Shown here: piece after piece, positions 1-32,397 of the stretch
Position numbering within the stretch: position 1 is the first letter of the stretch
How the letters are laid out: each line of letters opens with the position of its first letter
DNA from: a virus
Length of the DNA: 32,397 nt
Reading direction: 5' to 3' (one strand)
Virus record (IMG/VR): IMGVR_UViG_3300042564_001261
Location: 1 to 32,397 of that record
Program-made: the position numbers and the translations under genes
Notes under the pieces: generated by a model
What the model was told of the DNA's origin: nothing
What the model saw: only the letters and a program-made list of their open reading frames with translations
Databases searched by the model: none

Positions 1-55
1 TACGAGCACATTGACAGCTCGACAATTACATCTTAAAAACAATCTAAACAAGTAA
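1..55 (+). CDS. Scaffold protein, 3' end (partial, split by contig end)
   Basis: This is the C-terminal tail of the protein encoded at 31723-32325. Position 1 is the third base of a codon; the frame then reads through to a TAA at 53-55. It duplicates the end of that gene because of the 127-bp overlap and should be merged with it when the genome is closed. Confidence 0.9.
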   Translation, partial: TSTLTARQLHLKNNLNK

Positions 56-127
56 AATCATGAGCTTAAAAAAATTCATAAGCACTAAATTTGATTATGA
101 TGTTGCTGATTTGGCACCATACATTGA
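1..127. repeat. 127-bp terminal direct repeat (copy 1), contig overlap
   Basis: These bases are identical to 32271-32397. They hold the last codons of the scaffold gene and the first codons of the capsid gene, so the repeat lies inside coding sequence and joins the two ends in frame. A length of exactly 127 equals a common maximum k-mer of de Bruijn assemblers. The repeat is therefore best read as an assembly overlap of a circular or terminally redundant genome, not as a biological terminal repeat. Confidence 0.95.
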
Positions 128-10393: not shown

Positions 10394-10457
10394 ATTTGTA
10401 TTTTAGCATTCGGCATAAGTATACGCATCAGTTTAGTTTACATCATTAGGTAAGAGA

Positions 10458-10486
10458 AAGCACTCCAGATGGGGTGCTTTTTGTTT
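10458..10486 (+). terminator. Intrinsic terminator at end of late operon
   Basis: AAGCACTCC (10458-10466) pairs with GGGGTGCTT (10471-10479), one wobble, around the loop AGAT, followed by TTTGTTTT. It closes the late transcript ahead of the early promoter. Confidence 0.85.
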
Positions 10487-10488
10487 TA

Positions 10489-10529
10489 TTAGACATTCAT
10501 TAGACATCGTTTAGACATTATTTAGACAT
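10489..10529. repeat. Four TTAGACAT iterons at exact 11-bp period
   Basis: TTAGACAT starts at 10489, 10500, 10511 and 10522, each followed by three variable bases. The spacing of about one helical turn puts all four on one face of the DNA. An inverted partial copy (TATGTCTA, 10593-10600) runs into the early promoter box, and the degenerate copies AAGACAT occur at 10617-10623 and 10638-10644, the last reaching the ATG at 10643. This looks like an operator array or a protein-binding origin; no binding protein is identified. Confidence 0.8.
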
Positions 10530-10575
10530 TGCTACGGCTGATATTGAAAATAATTGAAAAAAATGTTCAAAAAAA

Positions 10576-10606
10576 TTTTCATATATAAAAACTATGTCTA
10601 TCTTTG
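10576..10606 (+). promoter_or_regulatory. Early promoter (Bacteroidetes type)
   Basis: TATCTTTG at 10599-10606 matches the Bacteroidetes -7 box TAnnTTTG. The -33 element is weak (TTTTC near 10576). It lies between the iterons and the first early gene and overlaps an inverted iteron half at 10593-10600, so binding there would be expected to block it. Confidence 0.65.
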
Positions 10607-10642
10607 TAAGGTCAATAAGACATAACAATTAAAATTTAAGAC

Positions 10643-10801
10643 ATGAAAACAACACAAAAAAACACAGAACTACAGATCTCTATTAAATTCTACACAAACA
10701 AATTATGGGATGAGAGAGGATATGGTTTATCTTATTTATTAAGCTTAACTGATCAAGATTTAATCTCATTATATAACGAAGAATTTGAAGACGAATTTTA
10801 A
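10643..10801 (+). CDS. Small early protein, 52 aa
   Basis: The first gene after the early promoter. It has a Lys/Thr-rich start, a central GYGLSYLLSLTDQDLISLY helix and a very acidic end (EEFEDEF). No membrane segment or known motif. Small acidic proteins made first in infection often inhibit host proteins, but nothing here shows that. The start is an ATG preceded by an A-rich stretch. Confidence 0.6.
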   Translation: MKTTQKNTELQISIKFYTNKLWDERGYGLSYLLSLTDQDLISLYNEEFEDEF

Positions 10802-10811
10802 TTTTTAACAC

Positions 10812-10961
10812 ATGAAAAAAATGTCAACTATCGCGGAGCTGGATGCTAAAATGATCTTAATCGCTGCATCTGCCGGACTATCTCTGGATCAATTCAGAAA
10901 ACTATCCCCGAAAAAATTTATTGCAATCTGTAATCAGTATCATTCAAATCTTAAAAAATAA
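10812..10961 (+). CDS. Small early protein, 49 aa
   Basis: ATG at 10812, with a second in-frame ATG three codons on. It is a helical, basic protein (MSTIAELDAKMILIAASAGLSLDQF, then LSPKKFIAICNQYH). The spacing of helices suggests a small DNA- or protein-binding fold, but I recognise no family. Part of the early gene run. Confidence 0.55.
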   Translation: MKKMSTIAELDAKMILIAASAGLSLDQFRKLSPKKFIAICNQYHSNLKK

Positions 10962-10973
10962 AATCAATCAGCT

Positions 10974-11078
10974 ATGAAAAGATTTATCCCATCAACTCCT
11001 GAGCACTGGGAGGTCGTTCAGTGTATTGCAGCAATGATGGCTGTGCTAAGTGTAATTTTTTATTTTTATTCGTTATGA
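10974..11078 (+). CDS. Very small membrane protein, 34 aa
   Basis: A short polar start (MKRFIPSTPEHWE) followed by one hydrophobic helix running to the C-terminus (VVQCIAAMMAVLSVIFYFYSL). The stop overlaps the next start by four bases (ATGA), a coupling used throughout this region, which supports translation. A single-pass inner-membrane peptide; function unknown. Confidence 0.5.
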   Translation: MKRFIPSTPEHWEVVQCIAAMMAVLSVIFYFYSL

Positions 11079-11655: not shown

Positions 11656-11915
11656 ATATACTAGAGAGAGCAAATGACATTGTGTTTTTAAGATCAGAAG
11701 AGAAAGAAAGAGCATATGGTGATTTCCATGAATGCATGCATAAGACAGCAAAAATTGCTTCAGAAATGTCAAATAAAGAAATCAGCATAATTGATTGCTA
11801 CAACGTGCTGATCGCATTAAAATTGGCAAGGCAAGCTAATGCTCACAAAGAAGACAATCTACTTGATGCAATAGCTTATATGGCCTCATTGAACGAATTA
11901 AATAAGAAGCCATGA
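11652..11915 (+). CDS. DUF6378-like protein
   Basis: 87 residues, all helical. The pattern R..E....YGDFHE....AKIASE, then IIDCYNVLIALKLAR, then NLLDAIAYMASL matches what I know of DUF6378, a small phage family often near nucleotide-metabolism genes. It overlaps the ThyA-family gene by four bases (ATGA), suggesting a linked role. The biochemical function is not established. Confidence 0.65.
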   Translation: MNILERANDIVFLRSEEKERAYGDFHECMHKTAKIASEMSNKEISIIDCYNVLIALKLARQANAHKEDNLLDAIAYMASLNELNKKP

Positions 11916-12691
11916 ATAAATACGAGAGCAAATACGTTGAGCTGCTTTATGAATGCATGCATTTTGGTAAACCAGTTGAAGGGCGTAATGGGAAAACATT
12001 GCAAATATCAGGGGCCCAAATCAGAGCAAATATGTCTAATGGCTTCCCAATTGTGACCGGAAAAAAAATATATCCAAAGACTTGCTTTATTGAGACTGAA
12101 TGGATGTTGAGTGGAAATACCAATACATCATGGTTAAATGATCGTGGGGTCAAGATATGGGATCAATGGGCAAATTCTGATGGTGATCTCGGCCCAGTAT
12201 ATGGCCATCAACTTGTAAACTTCAATGGGGTTAATCAAATTAAAAAATTGGTTGAGCAATCATCAATTGATATACATAGCAGAAGATTATTGTGCTCAAT
12301 GTGGAATCCAAAAGATATTGATCAAATGGCGTTGCCACCATGCCACTATGCTTTCCAATTTGTTGTGGCTGAAGGTATGGCAGATATTGTTGTATCAATG
12401 AGATCTCTTGATTTATTTATTGGTTTGCCTTATGACATGGCGATGTATGCTACAATTTTATCTGTATATTGTAATCAATTTGATCTAATATCAAATGATG
12501 TTATCATAACAGCGGGGAGTGCTCATATTTATGCCGATCATCTTAATGCTGCTCGGCTGTATTGCAATAATCCTAAGCACGAATTGCCTAAGCTATTGAG
12601 CTGCAGCACAATCACAAATTTTGATCATAAAGAAATGGCAATATCAGACTATTGCAGCGAGGAAAGAATAATTGTTGAAGTAAAAAAATAA
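11912..12691 (+). CDS. ThyA-family pyrimidine modification enzyme, predicted dCMP hydroxymethylase
   Basis: 259 residues covering the whole thymidylate-synthase fold: Arg25, Glu61, Trp83, DLGPVYG (92-98), SRR (123-125), catalytic Cys144 in LPPCHYAF, RSLDLFIGLP (164-173), and His205/Tyr207. Asp175 stands where thymidylate synthases have the Asn that recognises dUMP (E. coli Asn177). In T4 gp42, dCMP hydroxymethylase, this residue is Asp. Ser203 replaces the usual Asp before His, and E-T-E-W (61-64) replaces E-L-L-W; from memory gp42 has the same Ser and an E-L-E-W. Likely reaction: dCMP plus methylene-tetrahydrofolate to 5-hydroxymethyl-dCMP, or to 5-methyl-dCMP. A plain thymidylate synthase is the alternative. 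A MazG-like gene follows four bases later. Confidence 0.75.
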   Translation: MNKYESKYVELLYECMHFGKPVEGRNGKTLQISGAQIRANMSNGFPIVTGKKIYPKTCFIETEWMLSGNTNTSWLNDRGVKIWDQWANSDGDLGPVYGHQLVNFNGVNQIKKLVEQSSIDIHSRRLLCSMWNPKDIDQMALPPCHYAFQFVVAEGMADIVVSMRSLDLFIGLPYDMAMYATILSVYCNQFDLISNDVIITAGSAHIYADHLNAARLYCNNPKHELPKLLSCSTITNFDHKEMAISDYCSEERIIVEVKK

Positions 12692-12694
12692 GAT

Positions 12695-13000
12695 ATGAAA
12701 CTAAAAAATGAATTTAACCCAGTAAGAAATTGGGCAGAAGATCGTGGAATTTACGCAAAAGGGGATGTAAAAACTCAATATATCAAATTCCAGGAAGAGT
12801 GTGGGGAGCTTGCTAAAGCGATCATAAATAATGACGATGATGAATTCATTGATGCCATTGGCGATTGTGTAATTGCTTTGACTTCTGTGGCCAAATTTAA
12901 GGGGCTTAATATCGAGGACTGCATAAATTCTGCATATGCTATTATTGAGAAGAGAACAGGGCAGATGAAAAATGGATCATTCATAAAAAATCAAGATTAA
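12695..13000 (+). CDS. MazG-like nucleotide pyrophosphatase, possible dCTPase
   Basis: 101 residues, all-alpha. The MazG metal site is visible: EExxE at 34-38 (EECGE) and ExxD at 50-53, with Asp57 after it (DEFIDAIGD). Such enzymes split dNTPs or modified NTPs into NMP and pyrophosphate. Next to a predicted dCMP hydroxymethylase, the attractive role is removal of dCTP and supply of dCMP, as T4 gp56 does. The substrate cannot be read from sequence, and general MazG-type house-cleaning or ppGpp turnover are alternatives. Confidence 0.75.
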   Translation: MKLKNEFNPVRNWAEDRGIYAKGDVKTQYIKFQEECGELAKAIINNDDDEFIDAIGDCVIALTSVAKFKGLNIEDCINSAYAIIEKRTGQMKNGSFIKNQD

Positions 13001-27282: not shown

Positions 27283-29819
27283 TGGCAACAAAGGAGGCAG
27301 TTTTTTCCCTTAAAGTAGACACTGGAAACAGTGTAAACGACATAAAGAGCTTTGATCAAGCAGTTAATTCACTCAATAAAGATGTGAATACCTTACAGAG
27401 CACAGTGCAAGAGGGCGCTGGTACAGATGTATTCGCACAGAAGCTCACAGAATTGAATGCAAAAGTGGAAGCTGGTGGCTTGACTATGCGAGAGATGACG
27501 CAAGCCATGAAGCAATACCAGAATATTGCTGCCCAGGCTGGGATGGAATCACCAATCGGCCAGGAAGCCATCAACAAAGCATCTGAATTGAAGGATACCA
27601 TCGGAGATCTGAAGGCAGCAACGACTGCACTCTCTTCTGATTTCAAAGGATTGGATACAGCACTCGCTGGCATCAGCACTGGTGCAGCAATATTTCAGGG
27701 ATTTGAGAGCGCCATTGCTCTCACTGGAGTGGAGAATGAGAATCTGGTGAAATCCATGCAGAAGCTTGTTGCTATCCAGGGTGTAGTGAATGCCATCAGC
27801 GAGGTAGCGAATAATTTGAACAGTGATGCAATCCTGGGAATACAGCTGCGCACTACCTATGAGAAGATATATGCTCAAGTAGTGGGCAACAGCACTGGAG
27901 CATTGAAGGGATTGAAGCTTGCACTCGCTGCGACTGGTGTGGGAGCTCTCGTGATCGGACTGGGATTGCTCATCACGAACTTTGACAAAGTGATGGATTC
28001 CATCAGTGGTGTATCACAGCGCCAGAAGGATTTGAATTCTACGATGGATGCATATAAATCAGCAGCTGTTGATGCAACTATGCAGACCAATAAAGTGAAG
28101 AATTCATTTGACCTGGCGAGAGAGGGAGTGATCAGCAAGGAGGAAGCGCTTGCAACATACAACAAGGAACTCGGTGACACATTTGGCCAGGCAAAAAATC
28201 TGAATGAAGCAGAGAAATTATTTGCAGAGAAAACAGATGCCTATATCCAGGCAGCATCCTTGAGAGCCCAGGCTGATGCACTCATGAAGATGGCAGCAGA
28301 GGAGAGAGTGAAATCATTACTCGCTGATCAGGAAACAGAGCGCATCTCAAGGACCAAAGCAGCAAAGGATCCATACTCCATTGTGAACATGGCAAAAAAG
28401 GAAGGCGAAGCTACAGCAAAGAAATCCAAAGATAGAGCTGATGACCTTGATAAATTGGTGAAGGATCTCACAAAGGAAGCAGAGCAAATTGAAAACAAGA
28501 ATAAAATTGTGAGCGAAGGTGAGAAGGAGGTGAATGATAAAGCTGAAGAGCAAAGAAAAGCAGCAGCAGACAAACAGAAAGCTCGAATCCAGGAAGAGAT
28601 CAAGAGAGAAAGAGAGCGCCAGCTTCAGATCATCGAGATACGAAACCAATTGATTGCTGACATCGAAGCAGCAGAAACAGCTTATTATGATAGTTTGTTA
28701 TCAGCAAGGGATAAAGACCTTCAAGATGCACAAGATTACTATAATGGACTAATTGGTGCAGCTGAAAGAGAAGGTCTTGATACCACTACTTTGAAGCTTG
28801 CAGCTGAAAAAGCGAAAGCTGATATCACTGACAAATATGACAAGGAAGATCTGGCGAAAAGAGCCGAGGCTGAACAGAAAAAACTGGATCTGATCAGAGC
28901 ATATCAATCAGTTATCCTGGATGAATACCAGAATGAACTCATCGACTTCGAAAAAACTCAAGAGGATAAGTACAAGAAACTGAATGAGGCCCATCAAGCT
29001 GGATTGATTTCAGATGTGGAATATCAAGCTGCCAGTGTTAAGCTCGAGGAGGAGTATTCAGCAAAGATTGTCGAGATCAACAAAAAGAAAACTGATGCCA
29101 TTGCAGAGAATGATAAGAAAGCTCTGGCAACAAAACTGGAGACAGCACAGAAGATCGTGGACAGCGCACAGCAAGCTCTCGATTTTGCTTCTGAATTAAA
29201 CAGTGCAATAAATGACATCGAAAACAATCGACTGGCAGCAATGGCCATGGAGACCGATGCACAGATTGCCGAGCTTGAGAAGAGACGAAATGCAGAGCTT
29301 GCCAATGCCAATCTGACTGGAGCACAAAAGGAAGCGATAAATAAGAAATTTGCAGCTCAAGAATATGCATTGAAGGTCAAGCAATTTGACCAAGAAGAGA
29401 AAATTAAAAAGCGCCAATTTGAAAAGGAGAAAGCATTAAAGCTGGCAGAGATTGCCATCAATACAGCAGCTGCCATCATCAAGGGGATTGGTCAATTTGG
29501 TCCTCCTCCATCACCATTGGGGATCGCTGCAATCACATCAGCTGGAGTGCTTGGGATTGCGCAAGCAGCAGCTGTGGCATCTCAAAAATATGAAGGAGGC
29601 CAGGCGCCAACGATGCCAGATTTCGGAGGAGGTGCAGCTTCGACTGGAGCATCAGCATCTTCATTCGCTCCGAATACCAATGCACAGCAGACATCACTGG
29701 CGAGCTATCTTCCAGGAGGAGCCAATGGTCCAGCTGTCAGTCAAGTGGTGGTGCTGGAGAGTGACATCACTGGCACCCAGCAGAAGGTGGCTGCACAGCA
29801 GAGCTTGAGTACATACTGA
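27282..29819 (+). CDS. Tape measure protein
   Basis: 845 residues, mostly coiled coil (Lys/Glu/Ala/Gln-rich from about 280 to 710). A hydrophobic segment at about 210-234 (ALAATGVGALVIGLGLLITNF) and a C-terminal Ala/Gly/Pro-rich hydrophobic part (AAIIKGIGQFGPPPSPLGI) are typical of tape-measure proteins, which set tail length and insert in the host membrane. At about 1.5 A per residue the tail would be around 125 nm (inference). The last 53 bases overlap a minus-strand gene end to end. Confidence 0.9.
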   Translation: MATKEAVFSLKVDTGNSVNDIKSFDQAVNSLNKDVNTLQSTVQEGAGTDVFAQKLTELNAKVEAGGLTMREMTQAMKQYQNIAAQAGMESPIGQEAINKASELKDTIGDLKAATTALSSDFKGLDTALAGISTGAAIFQGFESAIALTGVENENLVKSMQKLVAIQGVVNAISEVANNLNSDAILGIQLRTTYEKIYAQVVGNSTGALKGLKLALAATGVGALVIGLGLLITNFDKVMDSISGVSQRQKDLNSTMDAYKSAAVDATMQTNKVKNSFDLAREGVISKEEALATYNKELGDTFGQAKNLNEAEKLFAEKTDAYIQAASLRAQADALMKMAAEERVKSLLADQETERISRTKAAKDPYSIVNMAKKEGEATAKKSKDRADDLDKLVKDLTKEAEQIENKNKIVSEGEKEVNDKAEEQRKAAADKQKARIQEEIKRERERQLQIIEIRNQLIADIEAAETAYYDSLLSARDKDLQDAQDYYNGLIGAAEREGLDTTTLKLAAEKAKADITDKYDKEDLAKRAEAEQKKLDLIRAYQSVILDEYQNELIDFEKTQEDKYKKLNEAHQAGLISDVEYQAASVKLEEEYSAKIVEINKKKTDAIAENDKKALATKLETAQKIVDSAQQALDFASELNSAINDIENNRLAAMAMETDAQIAELEKRRNAELANANLTGAQKEAINKKFAAQEYALKVKQFDQEEKIKKRQFEKEKALKLAEIAINTAAAIIKGIGQFGPPPSPLGIAAITSAGVLGIAQAAAVASQKYEGGQAPTMPDFGGGAASTGASASSFAPNTNAQQTSLASYLPGGANGPAVSQVVVLESDITGTQQKVAAQQSLSTY

Positions 29820-30453
29820 TGAAGGATCTATTTTCAGCTGTGAGGAATGAATCTGAACAGCTGAAGGATCCGAAATCGGAGAGATATCTCTTTGCTTTGT
29901 GCAATGAATGGCCGAGCTTGAGATTCTCTCCAGGATAGGATCTCATTGGCCAGGTATTAAAGTATATTGATTTCAGAAGGTGATTGTGCGACTGATAATC
30001 AATCTGACCAAAGAGCTCGATAAATCGACATGACTGGATGAGCACTGGCTGATGGCATTCATAATTGATAAGCTCCAGATTATTGGCTGCCAGAAAATCA
30101 ATGGTATTCTCACATGCTTGTTGGTATGTGATTGAGTGTCCTGGTGAGATGGTGATATATCCATTCCTCATCACCTGGTGAAATGGGAATCGATCTGTGA
30201 TAAAAAAATCATCGTTCATCAGAATGAATTCATCACCAATGAGCTCGCAGAATATCATGACTTTGTCAGTGACTTCTGATCCTGGTGATTTCAGATGTGA
30301 CTTGTATGGAATATGTACAAAAGGGAGATCCATTCCAGGAGCATCTCCAATGATGTAAACTTCAGCATCTGGATAGGCCATATATAACCATCTGATGGAC
30401 TGATAAATTTCGAAGGTGCTTCCCTTGGATTTGAATGGATAAACAAATTTCAT
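29767..30453 (-). CDS. Stealth-like sugar-phosphate transferase (glycosyltransferase-like)
   Basis: 228 residues, the only clear minus-strand gene. It begins MKFVYPFKSK, has a Rossmann-like EVYIIGDAPG strand and the motif FILMNDDFFI with Asp81/Asp82, which recalls Stealth CR2 capsular phosphotransferases. The C-terminal SFSCSDSFL also fits small relatives I know from Bacteroidetes phages. The substrate is unknown: host surface sugar, virion protein or modified DNA are all conceivable. Its 3' end lies antisense over the last 53 bases of the tape measure. A TAATTTTG box on the minus strand (30458-30465) directly precedes its ATG, so it probably has its own promoter. Confidence 0.65.
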   Translation of the reverse strand: MKFVYPFKSKGSTFEIYQSIRWLYMAYPDAEVYIIGDAPGMDLPFVHIPYKSHLKSPGSEVTDKVMIFCELIGDEFILMNDDFFITDRFPFHQVMRNGYITISPGHSITYQQACENTIDFLAANNLELINYECHQPVLIQSCRFIELFGQIDYQSHNHLLKSIYFNTWPMRSYPGENLKLGHSLHKAKRYLSDFGSFSCSDSFLTAENRSFISMYSSSAVQPPSAGCQ

Positions 30454-31722: not shown

Positions 31723-32325
31723 ATGACAACAGATTTCAAGGCAATCATGGAATCAATTCGTGAACTGAAAGCTACATTCACAGCAAAAGCAGAAGCCTTC
31801 AACGAGGCAGTGCTTGAGGATGGCACAATGATCTCCTATGAGGGAGAGCTTGTTGTCGGTACAGCTGTATTCGTAGTGACAGAGACAGAAGAGATTCCAG
31901 CTCCAGAGGGCACGCACGCTCTTGGTGGAGAATTGACTGGTATCTCAATCGTTGTTGATGCAAATGGTATCGTCACAGAGGTGATTGATACACGAGCTGA
32001 AGCATCAGGAGATGAGCCAGTGGCAGCATCCGAAGAGGAAGCGCCAGCAACAACAGAAGCAGCGATGTCAGCAGAGGATGTTGAATCTATCGTGAATGCA
32101 AAGATTGAAACATTCAGCGCAATCTTCGAAGGGATGGCTGAAATGATCAAGACAATTGCATCCGAAAATGAATCACTCCGCAATGAGGTGACTGGATTGA
32201 AGGGAGAATTCGAATCTTTCAAGGCAGCTCCATCAAACCAGGTGACAGAGGGCGAAAAATTTTCACGAGTTACGAGCACATTGACAGCTCGACAATTACA
32301 TCTTAAAAACAATCTAAACAAGTAA
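31723..32325 (+). CDS. Scaffold / capsid assembly protein
   Basis: 200 residues. An N-terminal helix, a small beta domain (MISYEGELVVGTAVFV, PAPEGTHALGGELTGISIVV), then an acidic Ala/Glu/Pro/Ser-rich linker (about 90-118) and a C-terminal coiled coil (IVNAKIETFSAIFEGMAEMI) with a basic end (LTARQLHLKNNLNK). This layout and the place between protease and capsid genes are those of a scaffold, whose basic C-terminus often binds the shell protein. Its last 55 bases are repeated at the start of the window; the capsid ATG follows four bases after the stop. Confidence 0.75.
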   Translation: MTTDFKAIMESIRELKATFTAKAEAFNEAVLEDGTMISYEGELVVGTAVFVVTETEEIPAPEGTHALGGELTGISIVVDANGIVTEVIDTRAEASGDEPVAASEEEAPATTEAAMSAEDVESIVNAKIETFSAIFEGMAEMIKTIASENESLRNEVTGLKGEFESFKAAPSNQVTEGEKFSRVTSTLTARQLHLKNNLNK

Positions 32326-32397
32326 AATCATGAGCTTAAAAAAATTCATAAGCACTAAATTTGATTATGATGTTGCTGATTTGGCACCATACATTGA
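32271..32397. repeat. 127-bp terminal direct repeat (copy 2)
   Basis: Identical to 1-127. It marks the overlap at which the contig closes. Removing one copy gives a 32,270-bp genome in which scaffold and capsid genes are intact and adjacent. Confidence 0.95.
32330..32397 (+). CDS. Major capsid protein, 5' end (partial duplicate)
   Basis: The first 22 complete codons of the capsid gene at 60-1019, cut by the end of the contig. Same sequence and frame; not a second gene. Confidence 0.9.
   Translation, partial: MSLKKFISTKFDYDVADLAPYI

Follow-up and report, generated by a model that had tools for sequence, protein, structure and literature searches.

What does a phage with a genome of some 32 kb make with a thymidylate synthase (TS)-like enzyme in which the residue that defines dUMP specificity is Asp instead of Asn? 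This question is raised by IMG/VR virus record IMGVR_UViG_3300042564_001261, whose 32,397 nucleotides, analyzed in their entirety, are referred to here as the window. The record most likely represents the complete, circularised genome of a tailed phage (32,270 bp, GC content 41%), in keeping with its 127-bp terminal direct repeat; its genes include those for the portal, protease, lysis and packaging functions, an ERF/exonuclease/SSB recombination system and a DUF3987 primase-helicase. Between a metallophosphoesterase gene and the early genes, some 630 bp (10394-11020) have no convincing gene and could be a regulatory region. The features that bear on the enzyme are collected in Table 1.

Table 1. 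Coordinates in the window of the putative cytosine-modification cassette, the diagnostic codons of its enzyme and the terminal repeat
Feature	Position	Strand	Evidence or remarks
DUF6378 protein, 87 aa, predicted four-helix	11652..11915	+	PF19905 E=2e-11; overlaps enzyme start by 4 bp
ThyA-superfamily enzyme, predicted dCMP 5-methylase, 259 aa	11912..12691	+	PF00303 E=1e-65, alignments, clade conservation
Pro95-Val96-Tyr97 codons	12194..12202	+	E. coli Pro92-Val93-Tyr94, gp42 Ser94-Asn95-Tyr96; hydroxymethylase Ser absent
Leu141 codon, TS-like	12332..12334	+	3 before Cys144; E. coli Leu143, gp42 Asp145; hydroxymethylase Asp absent
Catalytic Cys144 and His145 codons	12341..12346	+	E. coli Cys146, His147; alignments
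Asp175 codon, cytosine-specificity residue	12434..12436	+	E. coli TS Asn177, T4 gp42 Asp179
MazG/PRA-PH all-alpha NTP pyrophosphatase, 101 aa, predicted dCTP pyrophosphatase	12695..13000	+	PF03819 1e-6; PF01503 above cut-off
Terminal direct repeat, 127 bp	1..127		Identical to 32271-32397

The open reading frame of the enzyme begins with ATG, has no internal stop and is a real gene. Among PDB profiles the best match of its product is E. coli TS, the top Foldseek matches of its structural model (mean pLDDT 72) are all TS, and its sequence is closer to E. coli TS (36% identity) than to the T4 dCMP hydroxymethylase gp42 (23%). Curated family models also label it TS, but they score it below most of their cut-offs. 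The alignments reveal that Cys144, Arg124/125, Arg164-Ser165-x-Asp167, Glu61, Tyr97 and His205-x-Tyr207 are all retained. At the position that marks a thymidylate synthase, Asn177 of the E. coli enzyme, the phage protein has Asp175; pairwise and multiple alignments both place its GLPYDMAMYA opposite E. coli GLPFNIASYA and opposite Asp179 of gp42, so that the initial annotation was correct on this residue in both proteins. Every member of the window's clade has Asp at this position, while the homologues from bacterial genomes have Asn in 80 cases out of 80, and Asp is hence confined to viruses within the sampled family. Because the whole clade keeps the Asp and all 80 bacterial homologues the Asn, Asp175 is neither a chance substitution nor a sequencing error. 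The dereplicated viral enzymes divide into 74 with Asp177 and 77 with Asn177, these 151 loci being a sample drawn by similarity searches and not a census. According to PMC8670742, a single N-to-D change turns TS into a dCMP methylase both in E. coli (N177D) and in L. casei (N229D), the works cited there being Hardy and Nalivaika 1992 and Liu and Santi 1992. The D179N change in gp42 abolishes both dCMP affinity and activity (PMC6400193).

The neighborhood of the gene supports a cytosine pathway. The DUF6378, enzyme and MazG genes are contiguous; an initial search brought up 14 viral contigs, every one of which has them in this order. Conservation within these 14 relatives is highest for DUF6378, with 72-85% identity in every one of them, followed by MazG (55-74%) and the enzyme (55-62%); other genes have 22-52% identity or are undetected. 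The MazG neighbor scores above cut-off with both PF03819 and PF01503 and has the E-x2-E...E-x2-D motif, which places it in this family. When the 151 dereplicated viral ThyA loci were restricted to those with at least 1.5 kb of downstream sequence, a MazG gene was found within 3 kb of 70 of the 72 Asp177 enzymes versus 3 of the 73 Asn177 enzymes (Fisher p=6e-35), with a profile trained partly on the same loci as were counted; plain tblastn with the window's MazG gave 27/27 versus 0/12. There are exceptions to the rule: L241 and L252, in contigs of ~245 kb, combine Asn177 with MazG, and L232 has Asp177 without it. Phages often encode MazG proteins (1053 records), at least one of which has no such enzyme alongside; the implication from Asp177 to MazG therefore runs one way, and the dCTP specificity of the partner stays a prediction. 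The pairing of TS with a pyrophosphohydrolase is not new, since the MetaGPA survey (eLife 2021, PMC8670742) had found Asp177 TS, and TS together with a PF01503 pyrophosphohydrolase, on cytosine-modified environmental contigs. With Asp175, its conservation throughout the clade and the MazG partner, dCMP rather than dUMP is well supported as the predicted substrate, and the shift in specificity that had originally been proposed is thus upheld.

What the enzyme would do with dCMP is a separate matter. The initial annotation announced a dCMP-hydroxymethylase signature and cited, in addition to Asp175, Glu63 and Ser203 as agreeing with gp42 and not with TS. The alignment confirms the agreement: Glu63 aligns with gp42 Glu62 (Leu60 in TS) and Ser203 with the Ser of gp42 GSLHVY (Asp205 in TS), and Met163 (Gln165 in TS) is a fourth gp42-like position that had been overlooked. 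These residues of the window clade count against a methylase and in favor of a hydroxymethylase, in which the methylene intermediate would be hydrated and the virion DNA would contain 5-hydroxymethylcytosine or a derivative of it; that DUF6378 is also found beside genuine gp42-type enzymes speaks for the same reading. As hydroxymethylase markers, however, Glu63 and Ser203 had to be rejected, for they vary inside the clade and are missing from most Asp177 enzymes: of the 74 dereplicated viral ones, 46 keep the Leu of TS at position 60 and 50 the Asp of TS at position 205, where only 4 have Ser. The published determinants of hydroxylation in T4 are Ser94-x-Tyr96 and Asp145, which stands at -3 from the catalytic Cys, where TS has Leu; the D145N enzyme is inactive and its formation of 5-hydroxymethyl-dCMP is abolished (PMC6400193). 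The window enzyme has Leu141 and Pro95-Val96-Tyr97 at these sites, keeps the His147 that is Thr in gp42, and retains a C-terminal tail of TS length (RIIVEVKK) that gp42 lacks. Thus, of the gp42-type features it has the Asp at position 177 and neither an Asp/Glu at -3, nor a Ser/Thr-x-Tyr, nor a missing tail, whereas all those expected of a dCMP 5-methylase on a TS scaffold (Asp177 with Leu143, Val93, His147 and the tail) are present. The -3 residue is Leu in 68 of the 74 ThyA-type Asp177 enzymes, Asn in the 6 of Xp12/AXL1 type and Asp/Glu in none.

The greater identity to TS than to gp42 also argues against a hydroxymethylase, and no glucosyltransferase or carbamoyltransferase was recognised in the window. 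One long open reading frame there (29767-30453, minus strand; PHROG 7999), overlapping a presumed tape-measure gene at its end, was considered as a hydroxymethylcytosine glycosyltransferase on account of a possible NDDxF motif noticed by eye; this candidate was discarded, as it had no Pfam or PDB match and was absent from 20 Asp177 records. A control is provided by the DUF6378 locus L342, whose genome is of the same class as a Flavobacteriales MAG: the enzymes of this locus and of its viral relatives have the complete gp42 signature (D-x-P-C, F-x-N-D and, in L342, S-N-Y). Because such true gp42-type enzymes turned up at other DUF6378 loci, the methyl and hydroxymethyl types can be told apart; the residue test discriminates and therefore assigns the window enzyme to the methyl type. 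AXL1 has Asn at -3 and Pro for His147, and the basis of the Leu141 rule is therefore gp42 and TS rather than a natural enzyme proven to methylate dCMP. A hydroxymethylase is, in our estimation, unlikely. The wider suggestion of 5-hydroxymethyl- or 5-methylcytosine in the phage DNA stands, with 5-methylcytosine the better of the two, but the hydroxymethylase label does not. Our preferred reading, with a probability of about 0.72, is that the gene encodes a phage dCMP 5-methylase built on a thymidylate synthase scaffold.

It could be objected that, everything but Asp175 being TS-like and the curated models calling it TS, the enzyme might still be a dUMP thymidylate synthase or a dual dUMP/dCMP enzyme that raises the thymidylate supply. 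We consider this quite improbable, since the 80 bacterial homologues without exception have Asn177, diverse phages all have the Asp, which goes together with MazG, and the N177D change in TS shifts its preference to dCMP (PMC8670742). The laboratory N177D and N229D enzymes are a close parallel to the window's methylase candidate, with an Asp placed in a TS scaffold that has Leu143, Val93, His147 and the C-terminal tail; the phage enzyme differs in being natural, confined to phages and further altered at Glu63, Met163 and Ser203.

A second parallel is Xanthomonas phage Xp12, represented in our comparisons by its relative, Stenotrophomonas phage AXL1. In Xp12 DNA all the C is replaced by 5-methylcytosine and AXL1 DNA resists cutting at C-containing restriction sites (PMC9206674); the Xp12 dCMP methyltransferase gene has had no formal assignment, and AXL1 gp63 is the probable Xp12-type 5-methylcytosine enzyme. 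Like the window enzyme, gp63 has Asp at position 177 and an adjoining gene for a MazG-family pyrophosphohydrolase. The two are nevertheless only 23-24% identical, gp63 having in addition an insertion; moreover, the AXL1 genome is larger, with its own polymerase, DHFR and dCMP deaminase, and profile comparison found no DUF6378 match in it. Xp12 also induces a 5-methyl-dCTP deaminase, and the dCMP deaminase gene adjoins the AXL1 enzyme, both of which would suit a role in salvage. That the window's 5-methyl-dCMP would serve the nucleotide pool or thymidine salvage by deamination to dTMP, and never become a DNA base, is nonetheless very improbable, as no deaminase was recognised in the window, the adjoining MazG fits dCTP exclusion, and MetaGPA ties Asp177 TS to physically modified DNA (PMC8670742). 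The MetaGPA set differs from the window in that position 147 is changed in the modified contigs, whereas the window keeps the His of TS; the emphasis of that study is on a hydroxymethylase and carbamoyltransferase pathway. The likeness to T4 gp42 extends beyond the four shared residues to a dNTP pyrophosphatase partner, though of a different family. The T4 gp56 dCTPase, which works with gp42 in removing dCTP and supplying dCMP, is of the PF08761 dUTPase_2 type, and the partner in the window is MazG. The best reading of these comparisons is that the window enzyme would be a natural counterpart of the laboratory N177D/N229D enzymes and of the Xp12 activity.

A plausible course of the reaction can be proposed. 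Asp175 would recognise and protonate the cytosine, such that Cys144 attacks dCMP and not dUMP, with 5,10-methylene-THF as the carbon donor; a hydride from THF would then reduce the exocyclic methylene to methyl, with 5-methyl-dCMP and DHF as the products. Reduction to the methyl is expected because the TS reduction site (Leu141, Val96 and the closing C-terminal tail) is kept and the Asp with which gp42 activates water is missing. The MazG-like pyrophosphatase would probably cleave dCTP to dCMP, which both feeds the methylase and removes the unmodified dCTP. Profile libraries recognised no DHFR, dNMP kinase or DNA polymerase in the genome; recycling of DHF would therefore need the host's DHFR, and host kinases would make the 5-methyl-dCTP that the host polymerase then inserts. 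5-Methylcytosine is thus probably built into the phage DNA, where it could account for much or all of the cytosine and would protect C-containing restriction sites. As to restriction-site avoidance, palindromes containing C/G occur in the window at 0.93 of expectation, and A/T-only 6-mers, which comprise only 8 words, at 0.69.

The Asp177 enzymes are not all alike. In a sister viral clade, of which L058 (5657-6496) and L081 (9905-10819) are two members among others, Asp177 is set in a TS active site that is canonical in all else (Gln165, Asp205, Leu60, His147); lacking the Glu63, Met163 and Ser203 changes, these natural N177D enzymes are a closer parallel to the laboratory mutant than is the window enzyme. 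In L058 and L081 the gene that follows encodes MazG as its C-terminal domain, and the contigs of this clade carry genes for a primase-helicase and a ribonucleotide reductase-like protein. The window and sister clades each have an SH-aLRT support of 99, and all the Asp177 sequences fall to the same side of one branch, with T4 and AXL1 on very long branches. A single origin of Asp177 is possible on this tree, and so we do not claim that the window clade arose from canonical TS independently. Among phage isolates no close relative was found by megablast and none for DUF6378, and the ThyA matches had at most 40% identity. The best isolate matches of the MazG and exonuclease proteins include phages of Riemerella, Flavobacterium and Nonlabens, hinting at a Bacteroidota host; a terminase search in a sample of Bacteroidia gave distant matches only.

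The third gene of the cassette has a distribution of its own. DUF6378 is present at 18 of the 19 window-clade loci but at none of the 49 sister-clade, 6 Xp12-type or 77 Asn177 loci. A search seeded with it, limited to the best 80 matches with ~490 more viral loci beyond, yielded 74 further loci (46 after dereplication). Among these closest relatives of DUF6378, 33 of the 74 loci have a TS-type enzyme and 35 a gp42-type one by profile score, a ThyA-superfamily enzyme lies within ~4 kb at 43 of the 46 dereplicated loci, and the two genes are adjacent (<=200 bp) in 25 of these 43. In the reverse direction, gp42-type loci reached via the enzyme have DUF6378 in 14 cases of 15, the exception being a 2-kb fragment. 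L342 (742-1647 and 387-749, both on the minus strand), L417-L430 and L366-L415 are instances of DUF6378 near genuine gp42-type dCMP hydroxymethylases. Since DUF6378 lies near enzymes with the Asp145, Ser94-x-Tyr96 and Asp179 equivalents in many viral contigs, it tracks both cytosine modifications. A further group (L375, L377, L394, L400) has ThyA-superfamily enzymes near DUF6378 and MazG that carry an unusual RVPC motif and IRSCDAVRH(L/F)(R/K)N; their -3 residue is neither of the methylase nor of the gp42 type.

The model of DUF6378 is poor (pLDDT 63) and has no PDB match. A K-x2-R...KEDNLLDA..Y pattern and the C-terminal part of AXL1 gp64 had suggested a second MazG-type or an Nmad1-type domain, an idea that was abandoned when profile comparisons gave no match. 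The link to cytosine modification appears to be new: a literature search found no paper connecting DUF6378 with dCMP hydroxymethylase, and the MetaGPA text does not mention it. As the putative third component, DUF6378 may control entry into the nucleotide pool, bind the modified nucleotide or scaffold a complex. We would give even odds to the proposal that it is a core component of viral cytosine modification, for example a pool-controlling or a carrier/regulatory one, that serves dCMP methylases and gp42-type hydroxymethylases alike, and that it and MazG together make up a compact cassette by which even phages of 30 kb, with no DNA polymerase recognised in them, could replace their cytosine.

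dCMP methylation is itself a known activity; what is new is the widespread variant, and no annotated isolate has this version. If our reading is right, the substitution of 5-methylcytosine, complete or partial, which has hitherto been best known from the one classical phage group of Xp12, would be widespread among environmental phages of small and medium size, and its enzymes would carry the annotation "thymidylate synthase". From raw sequence, the combination of Asp177 with MazG tells such phages from the carriers of true TS, and the residue at -3 from the catalytic Cys would predict whether the methyl or the hydroxymethyl base is made. DUF6378 would then be a marker, and possibly a new component, of cytosine modification.
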